Source of the DNA: Glandiceps talaboti
Lineage: Eukaryota > Hemichordata > Enteropneusta > Spengelidae
DNA: 64,000 bases
Reading direction: 5' to 3'
NCBI RefSeq assembly: GCF_964340395.1
Contig: NC_135566.1
Coordinates: forward strand, 2,501 to 66,500
The position numbers were made by a program, and so were the translations under genes. Below, piece by piece: positions 6,995 through 51,994 of this stretch (position 1 is the stretch's first letter; the number at the start of each line of letters is the position of its first letter). Below the pieces are notes generated by a model. That model was given only the letters and a program-made list of their open reading frames with translations. It searched no databases and was not told the DNA's origin.

Positions 6995-8292
6995 TTATTC
7001 AGGTAGTTCAGATTTTTGACAAAGCCTTGCCAGAAGTCCTGACATTTGTAACAATGACTGCACTCCTTCTGCTATTCTTAGATGAGTGTATCCAATTTCC
7101 TGTGAAAAAAATAAGAAGATATGAAGCTAACTGTTCCTGTTTATACTTGGTAAAGTATGCCTGCATGTTGGTACAGTAAGAGAGACCGACTTATTTTGAA
7201 ACTTTTTCTTTGAATGTTACAATTTTCACATATTGTATATTTGTTGAGTTAAAAAACTCAAACTTGGTCTATCCTGTGTCACATTGTTTTTCCTACAAGA
7301 AAAACATAGTAAAGTTACAGTATTCATTAACCAGATTTAAACTGAATGCCTCTTGTAAGGGCAAAACCAGAGACTTTTGGTCTTACACACATTGTTGGCA
7401 TGCAAAATTCGGAGCAATAGGCATTATACATGATGTACCTCTAATTGGAACATTAATTATATGAAACTATACGACAATTGGCACTTGCATAGTTAACATA
7501 TTACCCAATTATTGAAAAATCGTTAATTATGCAAATTAACCATTACCATTATAAACTACATATACATCAACAAGCTTTAAAGGACACATCATGACATGCA
7601 CTTCCTTACCATCAATGCATACACTAAATTATCTGAAATTTAAAACTTGCATTTTAAAGGTAGTGCCGAATTATCAAAATAGATTGTTTATGCAAATTAC
7701 ACATCACAATAAAAAACTACATAAAAAACTACATCAAACACATGTGATTTGTTATGGTTGATGTATGTACCAAGTCAAATGAAATTTGAAGTTTTTATTC
7801 TTGAGATACAGCCTATTACTGGAAATAATGAATTATGCAAATTATTCATTAAAACTATAAGCTACATCAACAAACTATATAATAATTATAATAATGGTTT
7901 ATTTCCAAACGTTGTGACCTAATGGTCAAAATTACGATTGTTACATTACTTTTTAAAACACACTAAGAACAAAAACAACATCAAATATACATCAAATGCA
8001 CCTTGTTATAGTTAATGCCTGTACAAAATTATGTTGAATGTGAAGTGTGCATTCTTAAGATATAGCCTAATTACTAAAAAACACAATTATGCAAATATCT
8101 AATGTTCATTCGATGTTTACCAAATTTAATCAGTTCTTGTGATTAGCATATGGAAGATGTGTAACAAGTTTCATTAAAATCACTGCAGTACTTTTTGAGA
8201 TATTGTGTCCAAAGATAGACAGATAGCCAGACATACATACATACATACATACATACATACATACATACATACATACATACATACATACATAC

Positions 8293-8323
<31 letters not shown>

Positions 8324-14300: not shown

Positions 14301-17300
14301 CAGTCAGGAGTCTTGCTGTGTGACCATGAGTAGTAGCAGATGGCAACTGTAATGTGCATGCGATGGGCAATTGACATGTACACATCTGGAATGTAATACA
14401 ATGTACAATGTAACAATTTGACCTAAATCATATGCACACCATTACGCATGTGTGCGGTACACACATCATATACAACTATTACGAGTGAGATACACAATTA
14501 CAGAAACAAACTCACTAGCATATTGTTTACATGAATTTGGTGAACAACAGGGAATAATCATTAATTTGCAGGAAGTTGCTAAAATGTACGATTATCTGAA
14601 AACACATACTATGACTTCAAAACAGCAAGGGGCATTGCAAATATCTTTTTTCTGGCATTTCATGGACGAATATTATTATATTATAATAATAGTGTATATT
14701 TTTTGAAGGCGATAAGCTGGTAACAGGTACATGTTTCCTGATCAATTTACTGGAGTTTCCCCCATAGCTGGGGCCCATGACCAAAGTGAAACGACGGAAA
14801 CCATATAAAATGCTTTGAAAATTTTAACTAATAAAGAACGCAAGTTAGCTTCACAAAATGTCTTCATGTCTTGCTTTCCGGCATAGTACTGAGAGTTTAT
14901 TGTTTTTGTTTTGACATCAATGCAAAAAGACGCAACACTGATGTTGCAATTCAGTGTTACCATTGTTGTGTGTACCTGGAAAATTACTGCATCATGCCAA
15001 ACACAGGTTCATATGGACACAGCAAAAAAAACAAAAACAAAAACCCCAAACCAACTAAAAAAACTCACACAGTAAGACATAGTTCTCTTCAGCATGTTCA
15101 GATTTAAATAGTCTTGAGACGATACAGCACCATGCCACAGTAGGCCTTCACTGAGGACATACATTTGTAATCTATAGCTACAAAATGTATGTTTTTGTTA
15201 GATGCAAAGCAGATCACTAAAACACATATAAAATTCATCTTACTGCAATGATTATGTTTGGTACATTGCCTTCCCTGGCAAACACATCAAGTCTGCTGAC
15301 TGTGTCTTCATTGCCCACAACCTCTGTAAGTATAAGTGGTCGGTACTTCTCAACCCTAAAAACACAATAAGACATTAAATCATCATAAATCATAAATTCT
15401 ACCATTGTCCCTGATCAGATCATTTTAGTTCCTGACACACGTTAGCTTGTCTGCATCATCACCATCATCATCACTACATGTATCAGTATTTACTACACAG
15501 TATAGTTCAAGAATCCATTTCCAATACTAGCCTAGTGTATGCCTGAAGTTAACATTGAGCTGAAACAGGCAATAACCCTTCTACAAAATGTGTATGGTAG
15601 TTGTCGTTCTGGCGAGATGTTAATACCTACGTATTATACACGATGGAAATTAATTTTATGCATATTTGATCGAATGATCTGTATCCTGTAAGCAACCAAT
15701 GATGTTGATTTAATCCTTCTATTAACTTGAAAATCTAAAGTTCAATCATCAAAAATGACTATTCACCAACAGTTTTCGAAATTCCAAACAGATTTGTACA
15801 TTTTTTCATGTGATAGTTGAAACATCTGAAAGTCGCCATCAACGTGTTCATCACACGTCATGGTGCAGGGCATGTTTATTTGAGCCATCAAAATCTATGT
15901 GTACAAATTACGGAAACGTTACACATGTCAATAAAAACGACAGAAACAACTTGAACACTATAAAAACACAATAACTGATAAATATAATTTCCTGGTGAAA
16001 GTATTGTTTTGCAGAGACAGTAAAATGTTTTACAATTTAAATGCAGTATGAGTTTGTTTCCATTTTTCAGGGTATGTTCTATTCATGGTATGTTCTATAG
16101 GTACCATAACCCCGGAAGTAAATTGGTGATGTATCAAAATTAGGTTGATATGTAAATTTCAATGGCCTCTGTGTACGACATACGCAATGAAAAAAATCAC
16201 CGAGAACACTGCATACATTGCATGTAATATCATGCACAATCACTACTTGAGATGATCCTATTGTTGTTTGTACAACTTGCATGTAATTTCATTAAAAACA
16301 TTATAAGATAATTTACATTTCAAGGCTATGATATGGTATAATTAATATGTATACACTTTCTCCTTTTAAAACATGTACATGTAGTCCTATTTCGCAACTG
16401 CCAAGAAATGCTGGTTAAAGGGATAAGGGTAGATACTTTACAATACTTGCAATTTTCAATAGACAAAGACTGTAAGCATGACGTGTACTGCATGCTGTGT
16501 GACAGAAAAATAGAAAGTATGTGGTTCGATATTTATGACAGCAATGTACACTATGAATGATTTCGAGTTTTTTACCGACAATGAAAAACATTTCATTTTA
16601 GACTGTGTCAATAATTGCAGACTGTTGTAACTCTTTCACCACCATTGGCCTCATGGGATTGTTTGTTCTCCACCAACCCCCTCACTAACATTAGGTGAGC
16701 GTGAGTGGTATGCAATCAAATTGATATAAAAATACTTAGAGTTGCATATTTTTGAAAAATATGGTATCATTTTAATGGAAAGTAAATTTTCTACATTACA
16801 TGTACAGTTGCAAATTCATACATTCAAATGTTACATACACAACCGAAATATGGATTAAAGTAATAAAATAGTAATAAAACAAACATTGGTTGTATATTTA
16901 TTGACATATCACAAATAAACAAACATTTATGTCACAAACAAAATTCAAAATGCCAACATTTACGTTCCTACAAAACTTCTGTATACTGGTTAAATGGTCA
17001 AAATTGGCAAAAATTTGGCAGAAAAATGTTATTTTCCGTTGCATTAAATTTGAATGAAAAAAATTAACAGCTCAATAATCCATTTATAATGCTATAGTCG
17101 GTCCCCACTGGCATTGAAAGTGTACTAAAATATCTGAAGTCGTCGCCTCAAGACCATCTGGAAAGTGAGTTTCTGTAAATGTAATTCAGTATTTAACAGG
17201 ACAGCAAAAAATTATCACCAAATTTGTTCTCTAAATCGGTAAAGAATGCCCATAAGTCAGTAGTATCGGTGCCAAAATTGGATGGGCAAGGTGGTGGTAT

Positions 17301-26200: not shown

Positions 26201-28826
26201 GAATCTAACACGATCAATGCACCGTTCACCAGCCATACGAAAAAGGTCGACATGTTTGTTGACTAGCCGAGAAGTGCATAAGGAACTTGTGAGGCAGTCC
26301 GAATAAATAGATGTAAACTCCGACGTTTCGAATAAAAATTCTTCTTCAAGGTATTTTTAGGCAAGACATATTAGGTAAACATCTGAATATATCTTAAACA
26401 CTTAGTTGACTAGCCGACTGTACGAATGCCATAGAATTAGAAGGCATCGAATGAATAACATTGAAAAAAGTAAGCGTGAAACTGATTTGCACAGAAAAGA
26501 AAATCTTTTTGTTTCGTTATTTTTTTCACGATGAAGACTACGCGTAAATGGTCGTAGTTTTGGCTCATGGATAACGGACAATAGGTGTTTACTTTTTATT
26601 GTCTACAACCTAAAGTACATGAATATGCGTTGAGACTTATGAATATTCACCGTAGTACATCGTAACTACTAGTAGCTACTCGTCTTTACTCGTTACGACG
26701 CGTAATTATGATGCTTTTGATTTCGATGTCGCCCCTTCGAAATAGTCATGTAATCTGCTATCTCGATGCCAATAGATGCATTGTTTATAATGAGATGCTG
26801 ATGTATTGTTAACTTGATGCACCGTTAATGAGATGCTCTGTGGACACCTCAAAGGTGCAAATTGAATGCTGTTTACATACACTAATCCCCAAGAGCATTG
26901 TTCATGAACTTCTCCAGCATGATGCTTTAAAGATGCAAGCATAGTTCATGCACAATATCCCATTATGCTTGATCTGTACTGTACCCCATTCTCAGCTAGT
27001 GTGTTATCAGTTCTTCTTTCCAGACACCATCAGGCTATGGAACACTGCCTAACCACATTACAGACAGCATAGACTTGGACACTTTCAAAGAGAAGGTCCA
27101 GTCAGTAACACTATGGGACTAATGCAAAATACTTTTTAATTGTATATATTTTGTTTAAACTTCCCTCTGCTGCTATGCTGCCATTACGACATTACATGTT
27201 TTGTATTCATTCTGAGGACTGTACTTTAAAAGAAGAATAGTGCACCTACCAACAGACACATCAGCTGAACATTGACATCTCACTAATGTCCATGCGACAA
27301 ACTTGATTTTCATGTAATTTACCCTATGCAAGCTAAGACATCCCCTCTCCCAATTATTTATCATTTATTTATTAATCTTTAAAATACAGACCGTGCTATT
27401 TCACTGTTTTCCCAATGGAACCTGTTGATCAAGTTAGCGTGAAGGGGGAACATGTCACAGGCACTTGAATCAATCTGTATGGTTTTTTTAAAATTTAAAT
27501 GTATACTAAATACACATTTTTCAGTAAAAATCATATAAATTGATTTGAGTGCCTGTGGAACATGTCATGTGGCCTTTATCATGTTATTATTTCTTGTTCG
27601 ACTGCTCTTTTCTGGAGTTATTGTAATTTTTCGAATACGAGACTGAATCTGAGACTGTCCTCAGATTGTCCTCCAATGTGAATCTAATTCTGAATGACAC
27701 TCATCCTGACCTTGGAGTAATTACTGTATAATTACTCAGTCCAAGTCCTGGCTTACTCCATTATTAGGGACCGGTCAGTTTCTTCAGCCTGGGGAGTGCG
27801 GTGGATTCTTAAATTGGGCCGACAAAAAGTCACTGACCCCCCCCCCCCCCCCCATCTGTAAAGCCAAAAACAGGCTGACCCCCCCCCCCCTACATCACTT
27901 AATTCTAAAACATGATGACCCCCCCCCCCATATATATATATGAAGCCCTGGAGGTTTTTTACTCTGAAAAGTCAATTTTGAGACTATTCAGGCCCTTTCA
28001 GACAATAATTTCCAAGCTTTACAAGACAGCAACAACATGTAAAAAGAAAAATATTTTTGAAATATTAAGTTTGAGACTGGGATGTGTACACCTCATGTAG
28101 TGGGGGGGGGGGGGTCCTAGAGGGTGTCCCCCTAGAAGTCCTGGAGGTTTTTTACTCTGAAAAGTCAATTTTGAGACTATTCAGACCCTTTCAGACAATA
28201 ATTTCCAAGCTTTACAAGACAGCATCAACATGTAAAAAGCAACTACACATGGTTGAAATACTTTTGAAATATACTTTGATAGCATCTTGACAGTAAGAGG
28301 GGAAGAACTTGAGACTGGGATATGTCCACCTCATGTGGGGGGGGGGGGGGGGGGTCCATGTGGTGTGGTAGCTAGGTAATACATGTATATGTATATTATA
28401 GTTATGCTTGAACTAATAAGTAATATTAAAGAATTTATGTAAGAAACAGGGAGAAGAACAAATATTGACATGTACCACATTTCAGACAAGGCTATATGCC
28501 ATTGTAGAAAAAGGATTTTTTTTCTTCCATCACAATTATAAACACAATGACCCCCCCCCCCCCCATCCACAATTCTGAAAACAGCATGACTCCCCCTACT
28601 GCCAATTTCAAAAACAGAGTGCCTCCAACCCCCCCCCCCCGGCCAAAGAAACTGACCGGTCCCTTAACCATAAATGATATCTAAAACAGGACTACTTGAG
28701 TGCATGTAATCCTACTTACCATGGTAGTTCATACCCAGTTGATTTTCCTGATTTCTTCCCTTTTTCTTTCGCACTTTCCTTGCTTGTACTTTGGTCAATT
28801 TCCATCATCTCTTTTTCCGTCGCCAT
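6995..28826 (-). CDS. RFC2: Replication factor C subunit 2 (RFC2, RFC40), complete
   Basis: Small AAA+ subunit of the RFC clamp loader, which loads PCNA onto primed DNA in the nucleus. The nine coding exons, in transcription order, are 28826-28720, 15355-15244, 13443-13337, 12716-12615, 11942-11842, 11489-11332, 10963-10898, 8617-8423 and 7099-6995. All are bounded by AG/GT with consistent phase, giving 350 aa (human is about 354). Landmarks: ELPWVEKYRP at residues 33-42, Walker A GPPGTGKT at 74-81, DEAD box at 139-142 and the SRC arginine-finger motif at 181-183; the helical C-terminal domain (about 252-350) ends in LPE. The clear [14 protein letters not shown]-type core separates it from RFC4 and RFC5. 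Exon 1 ([10 protein letters not shown]...) ends YELP plus TG, and its missing G is supplied by the next exon across a 13.4-kb intron. That intron contains an opposite-strand GPCR gene and several mobile elements. The gene is head-to-head with CENPQ. Confidence 0.97.
7480..8350 (+). repeat. Dispersed repeat family A with about 150-bp internal sub-repeats
   Basis: Four degenerate sub-units each carry a TTATGCAAATTA-like core (near 7532, 7689, 7833 and 8086), followed by a phrase like CATCAACAA and a line about a cacatgtgatttgttatggt type sequence. The block ends in a long CATA microsatellite at 8228-8341. A related block in the opposite orientation occurs at about 31960-32745. This copy sits in the last intron of RFC2. 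Confidence 0.6.
8228..8341. repeat. (CATA)n microsatellite
   Basis: Almost pure tetranucleotide array of about 28 units with a single CTTA interruption. It lies at the end of the family A repeat, 80 bp downstream of an RFC2 exon. Confidence 0.95.
8738..9856. repeat. 68-bp tandem repeat split by a LINE insertion
   Basis: Related units, each containing TTTGTTTACTTTCAGTTTG followed by a TGTACAT..TAGTAATGGGGAAT phrase, occur at about 8738-8797, 9741-9808 and 9809-9856. The LINE at 8798-9735 lies between the first and second unit and appears to interrupt one of them at GGGGAAT. Confidence 0.65.
8798..9735 (-). mobile_element. 5'-truncated CR1/L2-like LINE (RT C-terminal part)
   Basis: The minus strand starts at the reverse-transcriptase catalytic region (an ADDNELY block near 9730). 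It continues through a thumb-like region with [20 protein letters not shown] (9366-9307) and, in other frames, an LHWLPV block. This pattern is typical of CR1/L2/jockey-type LINEs. The frame is interrupted (the open part is 9555-9220), so the copy is dead. The 3' end carries GCGCTATATAAAT and a (GATA)n tail at 8798-8825. It is inserted in the RFC2 intron between the exons at 10898 and 8617. Confidence 0.8.
10300..10835. mobile_element. Candidate MITE with about 45-bp inverted ends
   Basis: ATGAAATGTTTCaCCAcTGG-like sequence at about 10310-10360 is repeated inverted at about 10783-10830, including a CTCTAGGGA block in both arms. A second, weaker inversion lies inside. No coding sequence was found. 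The outer ends and target duplication are unclear. Located in an RFC2 intron. Confidence 0.45.
13635..13690. repeat. Imperfect hairpin, about 22-bp arms
   Basis: GCGATAAACCACCCCCTTGG at 13635 pairs with the reverse complement of CCCAGGGGATGGTTTATTGC at 13671-13690, with three mismatches. The loop is about 11 nt. It lies in an RFC2 intron just upstream of a direct repeat. Confidence 0.7.
13705..14115. repeat. 75-bp direct repeat, about 320 bp apart
   Basis: Two copies of a block containing ATGCCGAGTTCAAAAAA and GCCATGGTAACCAAAAT start at 13721 and 14041, with a few differences. The intervening 240 bp are unrelated AT-rich sequence. The origin is unknown, but it could be a degenerate tandem of a dispersed element. 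Confidence 0.7.
15356..16620. other. RFC2 intron 1, featureless part
   Basis: No gene, RNA or clear repeat was seen here. Reading frames are short and without recognisable similarity. Confidence 0.4.
16625..18172. repeat. Possible 1.5-kb inverted-repeat element
   Basis: CTCTTTCACCACCA near 16630 is mirrored by TGGTGGTGAAAGGGTGG near 18155. Both occurrences are followed inward by a CC(T/C)CAT-like stretch. No target duplication or transposase remnant was found, so the element status is tentative. Confidence 0.3.
18590..20095. repeat. 52-bp minisatellite, about 28 units
   Basis: Tandem units contain GTGACATGGACAGGACTAAC and TCTATGTGGTGACTACTGTC. Variants (ACTAAC/ACTGCT, TGACTAC/TGACCAC, TCTCC/TCTTC) are arranged in higher-order blocks. 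The right-hand units are shortened or carry an extra TACATGTAG. The array lies in RFC2 intron 1. Confidence 0.95.
20760..22445 (+). mobile_element. Truncated hAT-like DNA transposon
   Basis: The right end, read inward, is CAGTGTTTCCTCTG, a typical hAT terminus. The left end CGGTGCTTCCCTC at 20760 is a weaker match. Between them lies a spliced hAT-type protein gene (20960-22291). No 8-bp target duplication could be matched (TGTACACA on the left, CTATAATT on the right). A separate inverted pair, CAATTAGCCAAACTTGCGA at 20619 and its near-complement at 22341-22361, raises the possibility of an older or nested boundary. Located in RFC2 intron 1. Confidence 0.6.
20960..22291 (+). pseudogene. hAT transposase-like protein (ZNF862/KIAA1586-type), C-terminally truncated
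   Basis: Two exons, 20960-21224 and 21735-22291, join through consensus splice sites (GAAG/gtaaga and tttcattttag/GTTG) to give about 273 aa. The N-terminal part holds a zinc-finger-like module spread over the junction: CKWC in exon 1, then GC.YF...L..H..THDH in exon 2. This layout is seen in ZNF862/KIAA1586-like hAT proteins. [21 protein letters not shown] block near the end resembles the hAT catalytic-domain DE.TD motif. The rest of the RNase H-like fold and the hAT dimerisation domain are absent, so no active transposase is expected. The methionine at 20960 was chosen because the upstream frame lacks an ATG. It could also be a domesticated fragment, but nothing here shows that. Confidence 0.7.
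22597..22862. repeat. Two-copy tandem duplication, about 137 bp
   Basis: GAATACAGAAGGTT ... CCAACTGCACAGATT ... GTTATAACTCACA ... AATTGAATAAATCAGAAATACA occurs twice in succession, with moderate divergence, upstream of the nested GPCR gene. Confidence 0.8.
23169..23204. repeat. (ATC)n microsatellite upstream of GPCR start
   Basis: About eleven ATC/CAT units end some 60 bp before the GPCR start codon, probably within its 5' leader. Confidence 0.9.
23262..24185 (+). CDS. Class A (rhodopsin-family) GPCR, adenosine-receptor-like, intronless
   Basis: A 307-aa single-exon seven-helix receptor of the plasma membrane. Landmarks: N-glycosylation sequons near residues 2 and 7, GN at 36-37, LACAD with Asp65, the disulfide pair Cys92 and Cys170, DRY at 116-118, FWMP at 246-249 and NPIIY at 284-288. 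A very short tail ([14 protein letters not shown]) follows. Position 3.32 is Met, not Asp, which argues against a biogenic-amine receptor. The NPIIYANR...EFRQ.F.K end and the IAMDRYLAI block resemble adenosine receptors and related orphans. The ligand is not inferable. The start ATG at 23262 has nothing in frame upstream; an AATAAA signal lies at 24474. The whole gene is nested, in opposite orientation, in RFC2 intron 1. Lack of introns is common in this receptor family and may reflect retroposition. Confidence 0.88.
   Translation: MNTTINNSSVCDTDKTSTYVIVSVMTFLIILAITFGNTLVILSIYQFHQLRTVANYFVCSLACADLFVVITVIFDAGWVTGMIPMQGNIYYCILQNSVMTMCISVSIIHLLVIAMDRYLAITSPLTYHARMTQRKAKVLIFVAWFLPLCLAGFTYSVWDKAAFTQEDMSCYAPDMLPLWVSFFYSSIYFIIPLSIMFILYTHIFLIARKHAQSIAAQENRSENTTYKKDLKATKTVAIVLGTFIAFWMPAAIVIVFAEVDFKDCETPWLFFMTFSIALSNSACNPIIYANRNSEFRQAFKKLLTARL
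24474..24479 (+). terminator. Polyadenylation signal of the nested GPCR gene
   Basis: AATAAA about 290 bp downstream of the GPCR stop codon. No stronger candidate lies closer. Confidence 0.5.
24480..25104. other. RFC2 intron 1, no further gene seen
   Basis: AT-rich sequence with no supportable gene or clear repeat apart from a short TTA run near 24970-24990. Confidence 0.4.
25108..26735. mobile_element. 1.6-kb element with 83-bp terminal inverted repeats
   Basis: 25108-25190 (GGGACGACATGGAAATCAAA...) is mirrored at 26653-26735 with roughly 90 percent identity. The left end follows TTA; the right is followed by TTC, so a TTA duplication of PIF/Harbinger type is possible but imperfect. The arms contain an inner near-palindrome around CTACTAGTAG. 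The interior holds no recognisable transposase. It does contain a short minus-strand frame starting at 25788 (MAAKRELVT) with a good splice donor, and a hammerhead-like motif near 26320-26350. Confidence 0.7.
26736..27220. other. RFC2 intron 1, no feature seen
   Basis: No supported gene or repeat; a run of GATGC-rich sequence (26750-26940) is the only peculiarity. Confidence 0.35.
27225..27745. repeat. Rearranged copy of the foldback family found at 33985-34565
   Basis: Read on the minus strand, 27225-27360 (TTGGTAGGTGCACTATTCTT, GAGAGGGGATGTCT) matches the core of the element in a CENPQ intron. 27590-27740 (TTTCTTGTTCGACTGCTCTT, TTTTTCGAATACGAGACTGA) matches one of its arms. The second arm is missing or unrecognisable. 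Confidence 0.6.
27767..28663. mobile_element. Non-autonomous PIF/Harbinger-like element with poly-C/poly-G tracts
   Basis: A perfect 18-bp inverted end, GGGACCGGTCAGTTTCTT, occurs at both termini, flanked by TTA on each side (27764-27766 and 28664-28666). TTA duplication fits PIF/Harbinger. The 897-bp body has no transposase. It carries at least five C-runs after TGA on the outer parts, two G-runs in the middle, and a 110-bp internal direct duplication (from about 27945 and 28138, GGAGGTTTTTTACTCTGAAA). It ends 56 bp from the RFC2 exon 1 donor. Confidence 0.8.
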
Positions 28827-29060
28827 GGTCTAGTGTTAACGTGTTGGCTTATCGAAATATTTCAGAAGACCTTTCCCGCCACATGTCATCCAAAGATAGC
28901 GAACGAAAATAATACGTTTCGTTGTATTGGACATAAATTGCTCTTGTATAACAAATGAACCAATCAAAACGTCGATAGCTTTTAACAAATTGAGGTCAAA
29001 TTGTGTCACTGCACAGGCGCACAACCAGTGTCTAGTGTAGACGGCGGATATTTCGAATGT
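28827..29060. promoter_or_regulatory. Bidirectional RFC2/CENPQ promoter with E2F-like, CCAAT and CDE/CHR motifs
   Basis: The gap between the RFC2 start codon (28826) and the CENPQ first exon is about 0.2 kb. It holds TTTCCCGCC (28872-28880, E2F-like), ATTGG (28926-28930) and CCAAT (28960-28964) in opposite orientation, and GGCGG-ATAT-TTCGAA (29043-29057). The last matches the CDE, 4-nt spacer, CHR arrangement known from mitotic gene promoters such as CDC25C. RFC2 is an S-phase gene and CENPQ a kinetochore gene, so cell-cycle control through E2F/DREAM-type factors is a sensible inference, not shown by sequence alone. Confidence 0.6.
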
Positions 29061-32000
29061 GTAGTGTACTACTTATTTCTCAAATTCTCTTTCATTCATT
29101 CAAGATGCAGATGTAGACATTTTGAAGAACTTCAGGTGAGTATATCATAAATATATTCTCTTAAATAACTTTGAATTATAAGGTATTTAGATCAGAAATT
29201 TGCTTAGGGTGTAAATAAATTATATCTCCTTTGAAAAGCGTTTAAAATGCACACAAGGTATTAATGAACGATTAATACAGTCGACCCCCTTGAAGGTGAA
29301 GAACGAAGTGGCTGGTCGCTGTCACAGTCACTTGTGAGCTAATAACATTGTATTCTATTTGTGGCGTCATGATGGGCAAATGGTTAGCGAGGCCGGCTTG
29401 GAATCTACAGTAGGTTCGAGCCTCATCGCTGCCGTTTGTTTCTGAGTGGCTAAAGTCCTTTGGCAAGACTTGAAGCACGACTCGACTTTGCCTCAGTCCA
29501 CCCATAATAATATTGGGGATTTGGTAGGATAGAGCATGGAAGTATGGTTATACTTCCATGGATAGAGGTTGCAATGTGAATGCTCTAATCCTATGCGCTT
29601 AACAGCTGCAATGGAATGTATTCTCCACGGGGAGTTGAGGAAGAATAAAGGGCTGTTGTGCCATTGTGATCCATTCTGATTAATAATTGTAAAGCGCTTT
29701 GAGCACAGATAATGCGCTATATTATAAGAGCAAACATTATTATTATTTAAACAATAATGTACGCCCTCCCAGCCCATAATGGACGAAAGCAAACTTTGAA
29801 CGACATAATGGGCAAGGCGACAGCCGAGCCCATTATGGAGTGCAAAGTTTGCTTGAGTCCATTATGGACTGGGAGGACGTACATTATTGTTATTATTTTA
29901 TAGTTTTGCCAATTCCAGTGAATTTGTAGACCGAGAAACGCAAAACAACGTATACTATACACAGCGCTGAACATCGTCTGCCATGTTCGGCCCGGAAGCT
30001 GAATACTAATCATAGCGACACACGTACGTACACGTACACACACATATACACTTCAGTGAACTGCTGTGAACACAAATTTGTTTCATGAATGCGTTGTATT
30101 TTTAAACAGTGGAAATGACAATCATAAGTAACAACATACATTTCGAAAAGATACCTAGTCGTATGAAGAAACAGAACAAATAAGCTTGTATTGTTATGCT
30201 CGTTCAGGGGCCGCGATGCCCAATAACGGAGTACATTATCAGTAATAATGTACAGCGATGACGTCACAAAATTCACTGGAATTGGTAATGCTATAATATA
30301 ATTATTAATATTATTCTAGGATGATCTTAACACAAAATAATGACGTTATTAAGTATTTACAGTATTATATTTACAGTATTAAAAAAAATACTGTTGTCGG
30401 TGATTTGTTCTGGCACTGGCAACAGTATTTTTCGTGCCAAATCACCTGCTTTTTACCAAAAATTCTTGCACAGAGACCTTGCAGAATTTTCGTGAAATGT
30501 GTAAATTTTCCGGTCTGTATTAAGGAAACTATATATACATGTATGAGCGAAAAACCAAACCAAAATATCCTGGGATCAAGTATGCTTCATCAAAGCGCCA
30601 TCAGTATTCCTACAAAAATAATTCATCAATTGATTATCACTGTCCATTGAGGTTTACACTTTTAAGTACAAAATGTATCTAAAATTTTGGACTCTATTGA
30701 AAGTTACGTATAATAGACTAGCTATAACTCAGAATTTTGCATTCCAACAGTGAATGTACATGTACATGTACAAATGTAGGTGCAGAAATCTATATGTATA
30801 ATGTATGGTTTCACCCTTATGGGAGGCAGCTCAGTTTAAATCTGTGGTTAGTGTGTATCAGTCATCACATGTAAATTATGACAGTGAAAAACGTGTCTCC
30901 AACAGTTTCGCCAAATCAAATTTTTTGTAGCCCGCTAGACTTTTTATTCGCATTTGGTGACTTGGCATCGAGAGCCCTGGCCTGGAATATAATGACACCC
31001 CCTCCCCCATACATGTAGAAATGTCATGTACATCAATGTCTACATGTATGTCTAGTTTTACCATGGTTCATCAAGTTTACATGTACATGTACTCTTTGAA
31101 TTTAGAGAATGGCACCTCCGAAGATCAACAAAAAGACCCCTCGTTTGGTATCCAGTGGTGGTCTAGTAAAAGACAAAACACAGGCTGTACAAGAACATCC
31201 TAAACCAGGTACTTCAAAGTCCTCTCAGTCATCAAACACTATGCCATTAAGACAGAGTAGAAAGAGAAGTTCAAGAAGTGACTCTGGTGCATCTCAGGTA
31301 AATATTGGATTTTGAACTGTTTTTGAGCTTTTTTTTGTTATGGTGTTAAGCAGAAACCAATTCCTGCTGGGATAACTCAAATAGATGGGTGCTAGGCCTC
31401 ACAAAGTTGGGTGGACTTTTCTTCTAAATTACGCCTAAGGCTTACCTGCCAAAAACCAGACATTTCTTACTCCTACTGTACATTAAATTTGATTATGGAG
31501 CCTTCAAGACCCAAGAATTTTTCAAATGTATCCCAGTTCCTTAAAAAATGGCCAAAGTAGCACCACAATAATTTACAGGGGTAGTATGGCAAGATCATGT
31601 TGAAATGTGAGTGAGATACATGTATCAACATCACACCCATACTACCCTCTTGAAAATGTTGTGGTGAAGGAATTTTTAGTGTTTGTTTTGTGATTTAAAT
31701 AACAAAACAAAAACTCAAAAACAGCTCAGTATCAAAACTAACACTAGAATTATTGCATCTAAGAGGAAGTGTAACATGCACACATATGCATCATTGCATG
31801 TGCACATGCATGCATGCAAAGACCAATACACCAGAAAACCTTTTATATACAATGTTTAGACATGTACAAGCCTGAGTCGGGTACACTGTGTAGTAAAGCA
31901 AGTACAAACATGTACATGTAGATGGTACATGTACAATGTATAATCTGTATTCTGTGTATGAAAATATCCATTTTATGTAGAATATCTTTAAAATACACAC

Positions 32001-35000
32001 TTCAAATTCTGCAGCATTTGATACATACATCAACCGTAACAAAACACACATGTTCTAAAAAGCTACATTGTACTTGGTGTAGTTTTTAGTTTTAATAAGT
32101 AATTTGCATTATTAATGATTTTCAGTAATAAAGCCATATCTGAAGAATACACACTTCAAATTCTGCAACATTTGGTCTCATTTAAGAATGCACACTTCAA
32201 ATTCTGCAGCATTTGGTCTAATTTAAGAATACACACTTCAAATTCTGCAACATTTGGTCTAATTTAAGAATGCACACTTCAAATTCTGCAGCATTTGGTC
32301 TAATTTAAGAATGCACACTTCAAATTCTCAGCAACATTTCGTACATACATCAACCATAAAAATTATTGATAAACACACAATTCCTGAAAAGACTGTAGGC
32401 ATAGCAGTTATTTTTAATGCGTATAATTTGGTACACATGTCAACCATAACAATGCAAACATGTCATATGAAGCTCATCAACATAGCTATTACTTTTAATG
32501 AGTAATTGCATACTTAATGATTTTCAGTAATTAAAATATATCTTAAGACTACCGACTTCAAATTCCAGATAATTTGGTACATACATCAACCATGACAAGG
32601 CACACATCCTACAAAGCCTGTTAATATACATGCCATTTTTAGTTTTAATGAGTAATTTGCAAAATTAATGATTAGGCAGTATCTGATGAATGAAAACTTT
32701 AAATTTCATTTAGCCTGGTACATACATGTACATGTACATCAACCCAATCTGATGAAAATCCGATGTAAGTGACAGTGCAATATCTTTTTGGCTGTTAGGT
32801 TTACTGTCGTTTTTTTTCTTTTGTGAGCGCTCACTACATACATCTGACATAATACCATAGGTTTCCCAAACCACACAAGAGTCCTGAGTGAAGTTGCTCA
32901 ACCAACGAAAATGCATAATACATCAAAACATATGAGTACAATACTTCAGAGCACTCTGTTTGAAAAGAGCTCAAGCACAGAGGGCAGACAGCGATGTTAT
33001 CATTACATTCTCTTTCTTTCAATTTTGAACATTGAGTGTTATATTGTAAGTGGGATTCTTATTGGCTTCTCATAAGTGTGAGATTGGGTTTGGGAAAACC
33101 TATAGTATTGTGTCAGATATGTAATGGGCGCTCACAAAAGAACAAATGACAGGAAATGTATAATTAATAATATAATTAGTTTTCCAAGTAGGGGAACATC
33201 ATGTTTAATACCTATAGCCAAGAATTTTGCATTCCAACAATGTGTGTAAGACCAAAAACCTATGGTTTGCCCATACAGGAGGCATTCAGTTTAAATCTGG
33301 TATGTAGATGGTATAGTATGTCTGTGTAAGAATATATTCATTTTAATCATATGAAAAGTAAGAACATTCAAGCAATCTTTAATTTATCTGTATTGTAGTA
33401 CAAATGATGCAGAGAAGCAATCTTTAGTCACCTGGATAATTCGCATAAATATTCATGTTTCTCCAGAATTAAGGTTTGATTAAAGTTTGGGTCCTGAGTT
33501 ATTGAATAAATCCAGTTGTTGGCATACTTGTATTTATCAAAGAGTAGTTCTTAAGTATGTTTGCTCTTATCATCAAGATCTTTATTGTTGTTGTTTTCAG
33601 AAAAAGAAGAAAAGAATACAAGATGCAAAAAAGATTAAAACTGAAAAGAGGACTGAGAAACTACTGCAAGGAAGGAAACAAAAGAAAACACCACCTCAGA
33701 CTCAGAAACCTCAAAGACAAAAAGGTAGCCTGTATTTAAAGTGATGACAAAGGCATTGCCTCCATATTAGCTATGACTAGTATGAGGATATATATGGCAA
33801 TGATGGAAAGATGATTTTAATCATTGACCATGGAGATCCTCTCCCTACTGTCTATTTTGTACATACATGTAACTGTGATGTGAAGATTGTCATGATATCT
33901 ACTGTAATAGGTATTTTTTATCTCAACAGCAAAGGTTCCTTCACATACTCTCATATTGCAGAAGTGATATTTGACAGTACAACTCCAAACGAGTATAAAA
34001 TTGGTCTCAGATTCACAATCAGATTCAGATTGGGGGAAAATATGAGGCCATTCTCATATTGAGCCTCAAGTTCAGCCTCATAGTTGAAAAATCATGATAA
34101 GTCAGATAACACCAGAAAAAAGCAGTCAAACAAGAAATAATAACTTAAAGGCTGCCAGATATGTTTCCTCATCATGCTCATTTGATGGGAGAGGGGATGT
34201 CTCAGATTGCATGGGGAAAATTACATGAATACCAGAGATAAAAGTTTGTTGTCAAGACATTAGAGAGGTCAAAGTTCAGCCTATGCGTTTGTTGGTAGGC
34301 GCACTATTCCAATGATGTATCTACACAAGGATTTAAGTGTTATTTAAAAGTCTGTAGAAAGTAATATTTTACGATGGGTGAATAATGGGACATTTCCTGT
34401 AGTCCCTATGGTGTAATTTCTTGTTTGACTGCTTTTCTTGTGGTGTTATTGGGATTTTTCGAATATGAGACTGAACCTGAGGCTCAATAGGCGACTAGCC
34501 TCATATTGTCCTACAATATAAATCTGATTCTGAATCTGAGACCAACTTTATAGTAATCAATTGAAAACCTAGCTTTATTTTATACATCTGTCTGGATGAT
34601 TTGTCATTGGGTACACTTGGTACACACCAGGACTGTACACAACAAATCTTTTGTCACCAATTTCCGTCTGCTGCAAAACAGGTGTTTCGTTACTTGTTAA
34701 TTTTCAGAAGATAAAGCTACAAAGCCCAGTGACAAACAGGACTGACACTTTGTCACAGCATCAGTGTTGGCTAAAACTCATACAGGTTAATTAAAAGTGC
34801 TCAGATATTTTTCATAATTGTGATTATATTGTGATTATATTGTATTGTCAAATTGTATCTCCTTTTTCTTCCTTCTATTAAGCACAAAGAAGTCTTGATA
34901 ACTTCCAAGAAAAGATAGTATCTACCAAAAAGTTAGCCAATTGGAAAGTAGTGCAGAAGCCAACACACGACTTGGTGATTGGTTTAGTTGATCAAGCAAT

Positions 35001-38000
35001 TATGTAAGTTTGACACTGTACAATAAAATTTAATTTGTGCAAACTTGAAAGTCAAATATCTTTATGAGTGTGAAGCTACCATCATATTCATATTCATCTT
35101 CACTTTCAAAAGTTGACCTCTAGCTCAATGTGAATATGATGATAGCTTCACACGTTCATCATCAGATTCGAAGTCTTCCGAATGGGTACGAACACGCGTT
35201 CGGTAAATCACATATCCTTCATTGGCAGGTTGAAATCATGTGATTGTAATTACTTTTCACTTGATTTGCGTGGATTTGCATGCTTTCTTCTTATTTTTGC
35301 CAGAGTATCCAATTTGCACCATGAATTATTGTTGTCATGGACCATAATTTTTACAATCGATTGCGTTGACCCTCCCCGATCAAGGGAACTACATACATTG
35401 TGATAATTGTGGTCTTGACAACGCTATTTTGTTTAAATTTCACCAGTGTAAGTGTTAAGTAGGGTTTCAAAGATAGCGACACTGCTGGAAATCAAAACAC
35501 ACCCAGCCAAGCTGTATTTTATTACATTACTCATACAGGTTTTTTGTACACCCAAATATTGATATTTCATTTTCAAAGATATGGGAAAGTCATACTAAAC
35601 ATCCAAATTAGTTTTTTGTATAACAACAATAATTCATGTGCAAATTGGATACTCTGGCAAATCCACGTAAATCAAGTGAAAAGTAACTACAATCACATGA
35701 TTCCAACCTGCCAATTAAGGATTTATGTGATTTGCCGCGGCCCGAACGCTTGTTCGTACCCATTCGGAAGACTTCGAATCTGATGATGAACGTGTTAAGC
35801 TATCATCATATTCACATTGAGCTAGAGGTCAACTTTTGAAAGTGAATATGAATATGAATATGATGGTAGCTTCACACTCGTAATATCTTTGCCTACATAT
35901 AAACTGCAATGCCCTCTTCTCAGAGGTATTTCCCTTCAATTGTCTATGCAGACAGTAACAAGCTGGTGTTAGCAAAACAGTCCATTGAATACTGTAAAGT
36001 TCAATGTTTTACACATTTGCACATAAAAATGTGAAATGATAGCAGCCTGTTTTACATTTAGTAACTGATGTATGACACTTGGTCTCCTCCAAACTGAGAT
36101 AAACTGGTTACAACTAAAATACACTACAGCCTTATATTATACATTGAAAAAAGATTTTATGTTCAAAACAGTTGTATACTGTGTCATGTATTACTAAAGT
36201 ATTGTTCTTGTTAGTGGGCATTAAGAAGGAGTAATCTACTTGACTTCCAAGGCATTTTATTGTAAGTTATTCCCACCAAAATTGTGGTATAAGGTGTAAA
36301 ACTTTATGCAAGTTTTACCAGACTAGGGATTATTTTGTGTGTGGACACACAAATTTGACCTTGTCTGGTACATGATATTGTAAATAATCATGTTAAGAAG
36401 TTTGAACTGGAAATGAGCAAACAAGAAATACAATCGCAGTGGAACTGAAACTATACAGCACTACATGACCTTTCTAAAGTCCAATAGGTCATGAAGTATA
36501 ATCAGGTGACTTTTGACGTCAACCCTACAATATATGCTATAGGGGTATAGTGTATTGCTTAATTGAATAGGAAATTGATGTGACCACACTGTTTGAATAC
36601 TGAGGTGAACTTTGACAGTTGAACATTGATTGCATGAATATATTAGCAGTATCAATTAGTGCAGTATCAGCCCATTTAAAGTTGTAAGTAGAGAATGGCC
36701 AATCTTTTGAGGTATGTTTTTGTAGTTAAACAAATGAACAAAATGACAACTGGACAACTGAACAGCACAACACAATGTGACGAAGAACAGTCCGATTTGA
36801 GGGGGGAAAATAGTGACAGTGGTAGCGTATGTATTCCTGAGGCTGAATAATCGATGAAATGAAAAACCTCAAATGATATTAACGTGGATCTGATGAAGCA
36901 TCAGAAATATGATAGAAAGAAGCAACAACGTAAATTCCAGAATCCAAGAACATCGGAAAACAACATGGCCATGGTTGCAGTATGACAACAAAAGTGGTAC
37001 TATGTTTTGTCAAACTTGTTGGGACAGCCCAGGCATTGCAAGCAAATCATCTCAACTTAGCAAAGGAACCGACCACTTCAAAAGTTGATTAAAAAAATCT
37101 CCAAAAAAAACTAAGCTTAATGAACGCAAACATTGCCTGACTAGAGGAGTCCGTGTCGAGGTAAATTTGAATTCACCAATCATCAAGGCTTTAGCAAATA
37201 TCAGTGCTAAAAATATACTTTGTTAACGATGTTGTTCAACAGATTTGAAATAAAATTCAAATTGAAAATAAAATAGTTTGTTTCTTCCTAAATATTTCAT
37301 TGGGGGAAAATGTCCTTCATAATAGACTGACTTACATTCCTGTCTTGAAAAAATTGGATCAAAATATAAAGTTGACATGCTGTATACAGATTCATGGGAA
37401 AGATTTAATGTTTCATATAGCGGGACCTGAAACCACTAATTCTTTCAGCAGGACCACTGGATTTTTTTAAGGCACTGGTCTGGGGACCACAGTTCACAAA
37501 ATTATTTGTTCACCCCTTGGGACTGTCATTACCAATTATCTCCTCCACTATGCATTGTAACAGTTATGTCATTACATGCATGTATGTGTACTTGTCAATA
37601 AGTTATTCTCTTTTCCTCCTTTGTGTTTTAGGTCTTCCTTGAACCATACAAGTGCTGTCAGCTACAGTAATGTTCAAGACCATTTGAATAATTTAAAAGA
37701 CAGGTAATTAATTATTGAACAACATTGCTGAAAATATGTCTCCATATCTTTGACAATATCAGAGAAGATAAACATATGTCACAAAAAAGAAACAGCAATA
37801 GACTTAACAGTAATTCAAGAAATTATATATGAATGGACTAATTAATCATTCAAAAACTTATTTTTACATTGTCACAAAGGTAGCTTGCAGGTTTTTTAGT
37901 ATTTTGTTTGATTGTATGAATGATGGGAATTTTCTTGATATCTCTCTTTGGACAATATGTGAAGTACTGGTTCAGTTGTGAATTTTACAAAAGGAAATAA

Positions 38001-41000
38001 AGTAAAACCAAACGTTTTCCTTCACAATAGCAATACATTATGCTGCCTGTATACATGTATACATGTACCTGTACATGTATACCTGACCACTTCACACATC
38101 ATGGTTTCAGGATGATGCTTTATTGTCTTGTTTTATACAGAGTTACAAATCAGTTGAAAGGACTAAAAGTTCCAACAACAAGGTACATGGATTATAGAAA
38201 AATGGAAAGTCAATGTGTAAGTAAAGCAGATCTTCTGTTTTGTGTTGTTCGTTTCAATGAATGTCAAAAAGGCCAAGTGATAAATATTGATGCTATACAC
38301 AGTGTACTAGATCTCATGAAAATAGGAGGATTTGACTTTTTATCAAGTATTATCATATTTGGAAGTAATCACAAAAATCATGACAATGTAAAACATTTTC
38401 ATTTGATAAACCTTGTCGTATTTGAATCATTTAGATCATGTTAAGGGAGACAAACACTTTAATCTCCATCCAAATTCTATACATGTATGTAGATGGTCTA
38501 TAATCTCCATCCAAAGTCTATACATTTGTACATATATGTAGATGGTCTATAATCTCCATCTAAAGTCTATACATTTGTACATATATGTAGATGGTCTGTA
38601 ATCTCCATCCAATGTCTATACATTTGTACATATATGTAGATGGTCTATAAGCTCCATCTAAAGTCTATACATTTGTACATGTATGTAGATGGTCTGTAAT
38701 CTCCATCTAAAGTCTGTACATTTGTACATATATGTAGATGGTCTATAATCTCCATCCAAAGTCTATACATATGTACATGTATGTAGATGGCCTGTAATCT
38801 CCATCCAAAGTCTAAACATTTGTACATATATGTAGATGGTATATAATCTCCAGCTAAAGTCTATACATTTGTACATATATGTAGATGGTATATAATCTCC
38901 ATACAAAGTCTATACATTTGTACATATATGTAGATGGTCTATAATCTCCATCCAAAGTCTATACATTTGTACATATATGTAGATGGTCTGTAATCTCCAT
39001 CCAAAGTCTATACATGTAGATGGTCTGTTATCTCCATCCAAAGTCTATACATGTAGATGGTCTGTTATCTCCATCCAAAGTCTATATATGTAGATGGTCT
39101 GTAATCTCCATCCAAAGTCTATACATGTAGATGGTCTGTAATCTCCATCCAAAGTGTATACATGTAGATGGTCTGTTATCTCCATCCAAAGTCTATACAT
39201 GTAGATGGTCTATAATCTCCATCTAAAGTCTATACATGTAGATGGTCTGTAATCTCCATCCAAAGTCTATACTTGTCAATGGTCTGTAATCTCCATCCAA
39301 AGTCTATACATGTAGATGGTCTGTAATCTCCATCCAAAGTCTATACATGTAGATGGTCTGTAATCTCCATCCAAAGTCTATACATGTAGATGGTCTGTAA
39401 TCTCCATCCAAAGTCTATACATGTAGATGGTCTGTAATCTCCATCCAAAGTGTATACATGTAGATGGTCTATAATCTCCATCTAAATTCTATACATGTAG
39501 ATGGTCTGTTATCTCCATCCAAAGTCTATACATGTAGATGGTCTGTAATCTCCATCCAAAGTCTATACATGTAGATGGTCTGTAATCTCCATCCAAAGAG
39601 TATACATGTAGATGGTCTATAATCTCCATCTAAATTCTATACATGTAGATGGTCTGTTATCTCCATCCAAAGTCTATACATGTAGATGGTCTGTAATCTC
39701 CATCCAAAGTGTATACATGTAGATGGTCTGTAATCTCCATCCAAAGTGTATACATGTAGATGGTCTGTTATCTCCATCCAAAGTCTATACATATAGATGG
39801 TCTGTCCTCACAAACTAACAGAGTTATGCATGGCGCAATGGCTACATTTAGCATCTATGATGCTTTCTATCAGGCCATACAGGCATAGTTGTACACTGTT
39901 ATGATGCCTTCTATCGGGCCATGCAGGCATAGTTCTACATTGTTATGGTGCCATCTATCAGGCCATACAGGCATAGTTGTACACTGCTATGGTGCCTTCT
40001 ATCAGGCCATACAGACATAGTTCTACTACTTGTAATGGTGCCTTCTATAAGGCCATACAGACATAGTTCTACTACTTGTTATGGTGCCGTCTATCAGGCC
40101 ATACAGCCATAGTTCTACACTGTTATGGTGCCTTCTATCAGGCCATACAGGCATAGTTGTACACCGTTATGGTGCCTTCTATCAGGCCATACAGGCCTAG
40201 TTCTACTACTTGTTATGGTGCCTTCTATCAGGCCATACAGGCCTAGTTCTACACTGTTATGGTGCCTTCTATCAGGCCATGCAGGCATAGTTGTACACTG
40301 CTATGGTGCCTTCTATCGGGCCATACAGACATAGTTCTACACTGTTATGGTGCCTTCTATCAGGCCATACAGACATAGTTCTACACTGTTATGGTGCCAT
40401 CTATAAGGCCATACAGGCCTAGTTCTACACTGTTATGGTGCCTTCTATCAGGCCATACAGGCCTAGTTGTACACTGTTATGGTGCCTTCTATCAGGCCAT
40501 ACAGACATAGTTCTACTACTTGTTATGGTGCCATCTATAAGGCCATACAGGCATAGTTCTACACTGTTATGGTGCCTTCTATCAGGCCATACAGACATAG
40601 TTCTACTACTTGTTATGGTGCCATCTATCAGGCCATACAGGCATAGTTGTACTACTTGTTATGGTGCCATCTATCAGGCCATACAGGCATAGTTCTACTA
40701 CTTGTAATGGTGCCTTCTATCAGGCCATACAGGCATAGTTGTACTACTTGTTATGGTGCCATCTATCAGGCCATACAGGCATAGTTCTACTACTTGTAAT
40801 GGTGCCTTCTATCAGGCCATGCAGGCATAGTTGTACACCGGTATGGTGCCTTCTATCAGGCCATACAGGCATAGTTGTACTACTTGTTATGGTGCCATCT
40901 ATCAGGCCATACAGGCATAGTTCTAATACTTGAAATGGTGCCTTCTATCAGGCCATGCAGGCATAGTTCTACACTGTTATGGTGCCATCTATCAGGCCAT

Positions 41001-44000
41001 ACAGGCATAGTTGTACACTGCTATGGTGCCATCTATCAGGCCATACAGGCATAGTTCTACTACTTGTAATGGTGCCTTCTATCAGGCCATGCAGGCATAG
41101 TTGTACACTGCTATGGTGCCATCTATCAGGCCATACAGGCATAGTTCTACTACTTGTAATGGTGCCTTCTATCAGGCCATGCAGGCATAGTTGTACACTG
41201 CTATGGTGCCATCTATCAGGCCATACAGGCATAGTTCTACTACTTGTAATGGTGCCATCTATCAGGCCATACAGGCATAGTTCTACTACTTGTTATGGTG
41301 CCATCTATCAGGCCATACAGGCATAGTTCTACTACTTGTAATGGTGCCTTCTATCAGGCCATGCAGGCATAGTTCTACACTGTTATGGTGCCATCTATCA
41401 GGCCATACAGGCATAGTTGTACACTGCTATGGTGCCATCTATCAGGCCATACAGGCATAGTTCTACTACTTGTAATGGTGCCATCTATCAGGCCATACAG
41501 GCATAGTTCTACTACTTGTTATGGTGCCGTCTATCAGGCCATACAGGCATAGTTCTACTACTTGTAATGGTGCCATCTATCAGGCAATACAGGCATAGTT
41601 CTACACTGTTATGGTGCCTTCTATCAGGCAATACAGGCATAGTTGTACACTGTTATGGTGCCTTCTATCAGGCCATACAGGCATAGTTGTACACCGTTAT
41701 GGTGCCATCTATCAGGCCATACAGGCATAGTTCTACTACTTGTTACGGTGCCTTCTATCAGGCCATACAGGCATAGTTCTACTACTTGTTATGGTGCCTT
41801 CTATCAGGCCATACAGGCATAGTTTTACACTGTTATGATGCCTTCTATCAGGCCATACAGGCCTAGTTGTACAAGTTGTCTGTTTAAAAGTGTGCATGGT
41901 TAACTGTATAAACTTGTTTCTATTCATTTCAATCACGAACACACACTCAAACTCAAACACAAACACAAACACAAACACAAACACAAACACAAACACAAAC
42001 ACAAACACAAACAAAAAATAGCAAGTAGGCCAAAGAAAACAAATTGTGTGGTTCAGATAACACCCAGTTACAAAACACGGTGGGTAGGTAGACAATTTTA
42101 TTTTCCATTTTCATGTTCTATATTTTTTGTCCCCCAAAGGGGACTATTACAATGGGCTCTGCCCATCCATGTGTGCATTTGTGATACCTCATTTCTCAGA
42201 CATGCAATATTCGACTTCTTTCAAACCTGGAACATATGGGACATACACACATCAATTTGTTTTTCGATATATGGAAATATGACCGTATGGCGGCAATATT
42301 TGTAGTTACAAATCAATATTTACTGCATAACTCAAAAACTGTGATACATAGAGACTCCATTCAAGTTTCTACCCCAGATCAGAGTTGCAAGCTATCTTTA
42401 GAAACTTGACCATTTGACCTTGACTCTGACCTTCAGGGTCAAATATCAAAATCAAGGCAATTCTAGCCTATCACAGACTCATTGTAGTATTTGTATATTG
42501 TCAATTCTTTGAAATTATGTTCACAAGTAATATGCCTTGACCTGAATTTTCAGGTTCAATCACCAAAATTCAGCAATTTCCTGCATTCTCACATACTAAA
42601 AATGTAGTATTTGTTTGTTGCCACCAATTTTTTAAAAATCATGTCTCCATTCTGTCACGTAGAAGTAATATATTTGAAGGGGATGTTTCTTCTATGAAGA
42701 CTTCTTGTTTTTATTTTTGGTCTGGTTCAGGTGTTAAAATGTACTTAGAGGTCAACAGAGATTTTTCATCGATGTGTTTGCATTTTCCATATGATATGTA
42801 GAAGACATTGTGTGCTACACTATATTCTGCCATGTTGTTTTGAGTACAAGATGATAATGTCATCAAATCTCACAATTTCTTTCATGACTTTGCAAAAAAT
42901 TTCGATTTTTTCAAATTACGTATACTTACAAAAAAGTTTAGGGTTGGCAGTGAAAAACTAAGTTGGGGTTGAGTTACAGGAACCAAACCAATAATAAATT
43001 TGTTTGGCCTTATAAAAATAATGTTATTTTTTGTATAGCTCTTTATCAAACTGTGCTCAAATTGCTTTAATGACAATTATGATATTTTGACAGAAATTAT
43101 TGGAAGAAGTCCTTGTACAGAGTTCCAGTCAAGTTGAACTAATGGAATCACAAGCAGAACAATTAGAAGAGTAAGTCTTGCAGATTTTGCGTGCTTGAAA
43201 AATGTCTCCATGATGAATGACTAGATGTCACCACTAGATGCATTATGCATGCAAAGGATGGTGTATTTTACTTCTGAATTTTATACTCAAGTATTTCTAG
43301 CCAATTATTACCCCATTTTCTCCCTGCCTCCCTGTAATGACTTCATAAATATGGGAAGAAGAAATATAAATTTTTCACAAATCACATGAACTATTATACA
43401 ATTTGTTTTGTCTGTAGATCTGTCAAGGAGAAAGAAGATGAAGTCAAACAAATTGTAGAAAAAACAAACTTATATGAGACAAATCAAACAAAATGGAAGA
43501 AAAAGGTACACATGTTTATGATTATAGGATCAGAAGTGCTATAGAAGAAACCACATCTATATTTTAAAGGCCAGGGTTTCAATCCCAGGTTCCCACATTA
43601 GTGTTATTTCAGTGGAGCCATATAGATTATGTAGGACCATTCATTTGTACAAGACCAACTTATTCCATAGCTCTACCCATAAACAGTGGAGTTTTCTTCT
43701 CCAATGTCTATGCTCTGCCAGACAACTGTTTTCACATCATAATTTTACAATCCTAATCAAAACTGGATCTTTCAATGGTCCCTGTGAATGGGCATAATGT
43801 TTGTCACACTGATCTGATGTGTGGAATGCAAACAGAAGTAATGTTTCGGTTGTTTACATGTAGGATGAAATCTCTGCCATAAATAATGTGTCACTTTATT
43901 GTGTGAAAGTGTGAAAATATTGAAATATTGGTGATGTCTGTCTGTTTTGTATACAGTTACATCCCATTCTTAGAGAAGACTATGCAGAACAGTTTAATAT

Positions 44001-45316: not shown

Positions 45317-45530
45317 GCCTGTAACATTAATGACATGATATGTGGTAGATGCTGGACAGGTGCTGTAGCTAATACCCTAACAAATACAGATGGAGCCCAT
45401 ACTGCCAATGATCGGACAGATTACATGGGAAATGTTGGTGTTGTAGCTACATGTAATGTTGTTCATGATCTAAAAAGAATTGTGGAAAACATTGGTGCTG
45501 TCGCTAGTACCCTTCCAAAGACAAGCTGAG
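45238..45530 (+). repeat. Degenerate repeats of the CENPQ C-terminal coding sequence in its 3' flank
   Basis: The coding end YVENVGAVANALTNKD (up to 45316) is followed by three related stretches: GAVANTLTNTDGA (about 45360), YMGNVGVVA (about 45424) and IVENIGAVASTLPKT (about 45480). At DNA level GGTGCTGTAGCTAATRCCCT is conserved between the first two. They lie after the stop codon, in the presumed 3' UTR. Confidence 0.75.
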
Positions 45531-46780: not shown

Positions 46781-47221
46781 TTAGTTTGCAGAAACTATAT
46801 GATATTATGTAAAGTACATTGAGGTTGATGTGTTAACAAAATAGAATGTGTTGCAAATACATGTTCTTCTTGTAGCCATAGTTTATATTTCTTCAATTGC
46901 ATGCTGCTGCACGTGCATGAGTTATGTAAAAATTACTTTCAGTTTTGTAAAAATGTTGAAATTTTCATTTTTTGTTATGATTAAACTTTAATTACATACA
47001 GTATCTGTATTTTTGTGTGTTTGTAATGGTCATCACATTTAATAAACAATGCCTGTCTTCTTTTGTTTTTTAACACTATGTTTGATTTTTCACCTGAGAT
47101 TTTCAGTATGCCCAGCGTACCTGTAGCCTTGAAGGACTAATGGTGCACGAGCACAAAATCAAAATGACAGTTAGGATACCTGAAGTAATGTAGTAGTGTT
47201 TAGGCCTTTAAGACTACGGAT

Positions 47222-51990: not shown

Positions 51991-51994
51991 TCTA

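Follow-up and report, generated by a model that had tools for sequence, protein, structure and literature searches.

A candidate bidirectional promoter with CDE/CHR-type and E2F-type motifs between RFC2 and CENPQ in Glandiceps talaboti

Introduction

In the hemichordate Glandiceps talaboti, the genes for a replication factor subunit (RFC2) and a kinetochore protein (CENPQ) face away from each other across a gap of 234 bp. This raises the question of whether so short an interval could serve both genes, and whether it might place them under common control by the cell cycle. We addressed this question in a window of 64 kb (64,000 nucleotides of contig NC_135566.1), to which all positions refer. 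The gap, a candidate bidirectional promoter without strand of its own, was read directly at 28827..29060.

The motifs of interest are well described. CDE and CHR elements are reported with a four-base spacer between them, with GGGCGG and TGGCGG as CDEs and with TTCGAA among the common CHRs; the same source connects E2F sites with S phase and CHRs with G2/M, and gives TTSSCGC as the E2F motif (PMC5716687). Ten CHR variants are listed elsewhere, with Bub1 as the gene that has a TTCGAA CHR (PMC4705690). The LIN54 consensus is given as TTYRAA and is described as optimal when the centre holds T or A; TTCGAA fits this consensus but not its optimal form (PMC4974476). A hybrid E2F-LIN54 motif has been described for worm, and fly and human have related ones (PMC3093354), and 423 DRM sites are counted in the bidirectional promoters of 844 genes in Caenorhabditis elegans (PMC5683655).

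Identity and layout of the two genes

RFC2 is encoded on the minus strand. Its first coding exon (28720..28826) opens with an ATG at 28826-28824, in the context ACCATGG, and closes at a donor reading ATG/GTAAGT. The other coding exons lie within 6995..15355 and end in a stop codon at 6997-6995. They were located by tblastn with the human protein, followed by inspection of the flanks, and the minus-strand pieces (15244-15354, 13336-13443, 12617-12718, 11843-11944, 11332-11496, 10895-10966, 8372-8620 and 7001-7123) in several cases extend past or stop short of the real exon boundaries. Compared with PDB, the spliced protein matches the chain 'Replication factor C subunit 2' at E=2.8e-183. The next-ranking subunits from entries of similar origin (7z6h and 6vvo, human) match far more weakly, subunit 5 with 2.2e-65 and subunit 4 with 2.8e-58, so that the subunit name RFC2 is correct.

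Intron 1 of RFC2 harbors several other features. An element of ~0.9 kb at 27766-28664, ~55 bp from exon 1, ends in 37-nt inverted repeats (84%), contains long runs of C and of G, and looks like a non-autonomous DNA transposon. On the opposite strand of the intron is an open reading frame for a rhodopsin-type GPCR (23265-24182, plus strand; 7tm_1, E=1.8e-48), and a large minisatellite with 52-bp units occupies 18583-20097.

CENPQ is encoded on the plus strand in nine coding exons: 31106-31297 (ATG at 31109), 33601-33724, 34883-35003, 37632-37703, 38141-38216, 43094-43170, 43418-43505, 43957-44043 and 45176-45316. Spliced together (31106..45316), these give 324 amino acids with consistent phases throughout. 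The product resembles CENP-Q over the conserved region: its residues 118-312 match chains labelled 'Centromere protein Q' in PDB at E=1.8e-5, and it matches Pfam PF13094 with E=8.4e-4 and 19.9 bits, under the cut-off of 28.5 bits. Both E-values are flattered by the choice of the middle exons (34883, 37632 and 38141), which were picked partly by likeness to the human protein; in their favor, the phases stay consistent from exon to exon and the exon at 37632-37703 had the top splice score in its search. A blastp comparison with human CENPQ, in which the last exon was out of frame, gave 65 identical residues of 258.

The likeness was found solely by the nine-exon splice. An incomplete set of exons did not match CENP-Q, the best tblastn hit with human CENPQ had an E-value of 0.93, and a Pfam scan of the three plus-strand frames of ~31000-41000 and of ~40990-52988, with stops read as X, returned no CENP-Q match. 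In one pattern scan of each collection with the CENPQ protein, 87 stretches in genome_contigs and 8 in viral_contigs matched, with none confirmed in either and hence no relative found; these collections consist mostly of bacteria, archaea, phages, plasmids and viruses. Given the spliced protein, we take the name CENPQ as correct. The initial annotation had proposed both gene names and a head-to-head layout, and all three hold: RFC2 on the minus strand by its PDB subunit 2 match, and CENPQ on the plus strand once the nine exons are spliced.

Human RFC2 and CENPQ are on different chromosomes; the pairing is therefore not common to animals in general. Titles and abstract openings listed by a literature search on CENPQ, RFC2 and bidirectional promoters do not describe the pair, a statement about those titles and openings that is not a claim of absence from print.

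Repeats also occur on the CENPQ side. Large minisatellites with 49-, 37- and 44-bp units fill 38480-41879, in a CENPQ intron, and diverged repeats of the last-exon sequence were seen by eye 3' of the stop codon at 45280-45530. Between the gap and the first coding exon, a stretch at 29360-29760 has a B-box-like GGTTCGAGCC and a tail TAAAGCGCTTTGAG, and resembles a tRNA-derived SINE.

A probable untranslated first exon of CENPQ

The first coding exon of CENPQ, with its ATG at 31109, is ~2 kb from the gap. Just downstream of the CDE/CHR composite, a strong donor reading CAG/GTGAGT at 29135 probably marks the end of an untranslated first exon of CENPQ (within 29058..29135, plus strand). The donor has the exact form MAGGTRAGT (29133-29141), which occurs twice on the plus strand of the 64 kb and never on the minus strand. 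This assignment is suggestive only, because none of the eight donors used in the CENPQ splice has the same exact form. The CHR lies 78 bp ahead of this donor of the probable first exon. If both genes start near the positions so predicted, they would fit the 1-kb span by which bidirectional promoters are defined, as the RFC2 ATG (28826) and the predicted donor (29135) do.

The CpG observed/expected ratio is 1.41 over the 234-bp gap and 1.59 at 28801-29000, compared with 0.39 in the window. It is raised at 28801-29079, CpG is entirely absent at 29080-29239, and ratios of 0.60-1.22 are found at 29201-30200. Values as high as in the gap also occur outside it, at 30201-30400 and 25801-26800. Six of 320 tiles of 200 bp have a ratio of at least 1.5, and 4 of 320 combine this with at least 11 CpG, namely the gap tile and three at 25801-26800. 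Those three, in RFC2 intron 1, have ratios of 1.58 to 2.22. We give CpG little weight because they are equally rich, and CpG content was rejected as a clear promoter mark.

Motifs in the gap

The composite GGCGG-ATAT-TTCGAA lies at the CENPQ end of the gap on the plus strand and was read directly. It consists of a CDE-type element GGCGG (29043..29047), a four-base spacer ATAT (29048-29051) and a CHR-type element TTCGAA (29052..29057), a hexamer of listed form at the published distance from its CDE. TTCGAA is palindromic, and the direction towards CENPQ is set by the CDE. At the RFC2 end, ~45 bp upstream of the ATG, is an E2F-type site TTTCCCGCC (28872..28880, plus strand), which the sense strand of RFC2 reads as GGCGGGAAA; it matches TTSSCGC at 28873-28879, and 162 bp separate it from GGCGG. 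Between the two are two CCAAT boxes in opposite orientation. The plus-strand box, AACCAATCA (28958..28966, with CCAAT at 28960-28964), is the only one that fits RRCCAATSR; the minus-strand box reads ATTGG on the plus strand at 28926..28930.

These elements had been pointed out in the initial annotation, and the composite at 29043-29057, TTTCCCGCC at 28872 and the opposed CCAAT boxes are all present as it described them. It had further ascribed to the composite the exact geometry of mitotic genes such as CDC25C. The four-base spacer bears this out, but the base 5' of GGCGG is C, unlike the common listed CDEs GGGCGG and TGGCGG, and the likeness concerns the four-base rule and not the CDC25C sequence itself.

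Further CHR-type hexamers are scattered nearby. TTCGAT, a listed variant facing RFC2 (28851..28856, minus strand), is a weak candidate that is not four bases from a GGCGG. The canonical TTTGAA at 29121 (plus strand) lies inside the probable first exon of CENPQ and is not preceded by GGCGG. On the minus strand are CTTGAA at 29099, TTTGAG at 29079 and TTTGAT at 28963. The MYB (YAACKG/YAACNG) and FOX (RYAAAYA) patterns have no match at 28800-29140. We also considered an E2F/CLE tandem on the RFC2 side, in which a CLE (CTTGAA, CTTGAC or TCTGAA) would follow the E2F site by four nucleotides. The CLE form nearest the site is TCTGAA at 28861-28866 (RFC2 strand), and the assignment was dropped because it is not at the four-base spacing.

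Chance expectation and a housekeeping alternative

Chance frequencies were estimated for 279 bp (28827-29105), a region picked after the motifs had been noticed, so the numbers that follow are descriptive and not clean p-values. There is one copy of the strict composite GGCGG-N4-TTYGAA in the 64 kb, where 60 dinucleotide shuffles of the window average 0.02. The strict composite was absent from all 4000 shuffles of the 279 bp, and appeared in 39 of 300000 simulated gaps (order-1 Markov sequences of 279 bp with the composition of the gap); the form GGCGG-N4-TTYRAA appeared in 76 of 300000. Under a laxer rule (GGCGG, 3-5 bases, any of the ten CHR variants) there is a second match in the window, at 42289. 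GGCGG has eight occurrences in the window on both strands, two of them in the gap, and TTYGAA alone is common (162 in the window versus a shuffle mean of 120, with palindromes counted on both strands).

The other motifs were treated in the same way. TTSSCGC, weak alone, was found in 15836 of 300000 simulated gaps (5%), the full TTTCCCGCC in 105 of 300000, and RRCCAATSR in 8753 of 300000. Of 4000 shuffles, 8.5% had at least two CCAAT boxes. The ten CHR variants occur six times in the 279 bp, a count that 11% of 4000 shuffles reached (shuffle mean 3.2). Among the 300000 simulated gaps, 9 combined GGCGG-N4-TTYRAA with TTSSCGC, and not one had the strict composite alongside both TTSSCGC and any CCAAT. 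As the site was selected with the motifs already in view, we regard the composite as suggestive and not as proven.

Two repeats within the region were set aside. An inverted 9-mer ATATTTCGA (28852-28860 and 29048-29056), with only two copies in 64 kb, was considered as a mirror-image CHR; its first copy contains most of the TTCGAT at 28851. Of 400 shuffles of the 361-bp region, 76 contained an inverted 9-mer, as did 63 of 175 other tiles of the window, and we did not build on these copies because such frequencies are at chance level. A 19-nt direct repeat of 79% identity (28823-28841 and 29025-29043) is not unusual either, its like being found in 22 of the 400 shuffles and 68 of the 175 tiles.

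The likeliest alternative is a plain bidirectional promoter of the housekeeping kind, with genuine E2F and NF-Y sites, in which the CDE/CHR match would be coincidental. The 5% of simulated gaps with TTSSCGC, the 8.5% of shuffles with at least two CCAAT boxes and the 162 copies of TTYGAA are what it would lead one to expect, as is a match found in a region selected afterwards, and TTCGAA is not the optimal hexamer for LIN54 (PMC4974476). It accounts less well for a strict composite that 39 of the 300000 composition-matched gaps contain and that reads in the sense direction immediately ahead of the probable first exon of CENPQ. Human CENPQ is, moreover, listed together with RFC2 in a table of RB/E2F1-bound p53-p21-RB targets (PMC9090780). 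On balance we consider a plain housekeeping promoter somewhat unlikely.

A putative DREAM/E2F-type promoter and the timing of its output

We favor the reading that 28827-29060 is a short bidirectional RFC2/CENPQ promoter acting as a DREAM/E2F-type cell-cycle promoter, with a probability of roughly 55%. This is the simplest account, and it makes the gap a plausible further case of an ordinary promoter type that is already known. In its favor are the exact motifs and their published spacing, the 9 of 300000 simulated gaps that have the broad composite with an E2F site, the gene identities, the donor at 29135, the CpG ratio of the gap, the listing of both human genes as RB/E2F1-bound p53-p21-RB targets (PMC9090780) and the worm precedents (PMC3093354, PMC5683655). 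Counting against it are the 5% of simulated gaps with TTSSCGC, a TTCGAA that is not optimal for LIN54 (PMC4974476), the C before GGCGG, the selection of the region afterwards, CpG values equally high elsewhere and the lack of MYB and FOX matches at 28800-29140. From the motifs and their arrangement we infer the binding events, start sites and timing outlined here, as well as the use of one region by both genes. In resting or G1 cells, DREAM would bind TTTCCCGCC via E2F-DP and GGCGG-ATAT-TTCGAA via LIN54 and E2F-DP, and binding at both sites would keep RFC2 and CENPQ low in G0/G1. In S phase, RFC2 would be activated by E2F. CENPQ could be supported from the CHR by MuvB with B-MYB, and a CCAAT box may provide basal activity in one or both directions.

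Whether such a promoter would time its two genes differently is a separate matter. The initial annotation saw in the shared promoter a link between S phase and mitosis, and part of this stands, as the CDE/CHR is oriented towards CENPQ with the strong donor at 29135 just downstream. Its implication that the CENPQ side is necessarily mitotic lacks support in that form, given that human CENPQ is classed as G1/S (PMC5453983), and for this reason a split between S phase towards RFC2 and mitosis towards CENPQ is possible without being the expected case.

Dual timing would mean that a single DREAM-bound element of 0.23 kb splits into an S-phase output for RFC2, driven by E2F in G1/S, and a G2/M output for CENPQ, driven separately by the CDE/CHR. 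This is a special case of the DREAM/E2F-type reading, and the odds of the two overlap. It would fit the placement of the motifs, the E2F site adjoining RFC2 and the CDE/CHR facing CENPQ, and the published division between E2F sites in S phase and CHRs in G2/M (PMC5716687). There is also a precedent in the 246-bp gap of CDT2-INTS7, where the response to E2F is reported for one direction only (PMC2194621). Set against these are the G1/S listing of human CENPQ (PMC5453983) and the described tendency of head-to-head genes towards co-expression, and we regard dual timing as quite improbable.

Least probable of all is a pair of separate promoters, with CENPQ starting elsewhere (e.g. just upstream of 31106) and the motif serving RFC2 only or nothing: the 2 kb to the first CENPQ coding exon and the lack of the exact 29135 form among eight CENPQ splice donors would agree with it, but one of just two plus-strand MAGGTRAGT donors directly follows the motif (29133-29141), and the raised CpG content of 28801-29079 gives way to no CpG at all at 29080-29239.

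Comparison with known promoters

Several described systems resemble the putative DREAM/E2F-type promoter in part. With CDE/CHR genes the gap shares the GGCGG core, the four-base spacer and a listed CHR hexamer, for which Bub1 is the example with TTCGAA. CDC25C, which requires both CDE and CHR, likewise carries CCAAT boxes (PMC4747163). The gap differs from promoters of the CDC25C type in the C before GGCGG and in that the gene it faces is listed as G1/S in human. The DRM/DREAM-bound bidirectional promoters of C. elegans have the same E2F-LIN54 type of motif in a shared promoter (PMC5683655, PMC3093354), whereas the gap is known from its sequence only and has a separate E2F site, 162 bp from the CDE.

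Among individual gene pairs, CDT2-INTS7 of human and mouse likewise places a replication gene head to head with another gene, across ~246 bp; its partner is not a kinetochore gene, and no CHR is named in the description on which we draw (PMC2194621). PRR11-SKA2 has a kinetochore-associated gene in a head-to-head promoter under NF-Y control, but it comes without a replication gene, and the account used here names no CDE/CHR (PMC5372550). In SRGAP2-FAM72, a CHR and E2F sites are described in the shared gap, with the CHR adjoining the start of FAM72A (PMC7957592); the genes are other than RFC2 and CENPQ. The parts, and their use in shared promoters, are thus already known, and the value of this locus lies in its gene pairing and in the test that it allows. 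If active, the gap would offer a small natural construct for comparing control by E2F with control by CDE/CHR on one DNA in two directions.

Other features of the window

A plus-strand reading frame at 61912-62172, which gave no Pfam match at E 0.01, looks by eye like the U-box that opens PPIL2. Weak matches to zf-C17orf113, under the curated cut-off, occur on the plus strand at 21713-22288 and ~36969-37082 and may be transposase remains. A telomere-like array of ~18 AACCCT copies is found within the sequence at 4134-4237.
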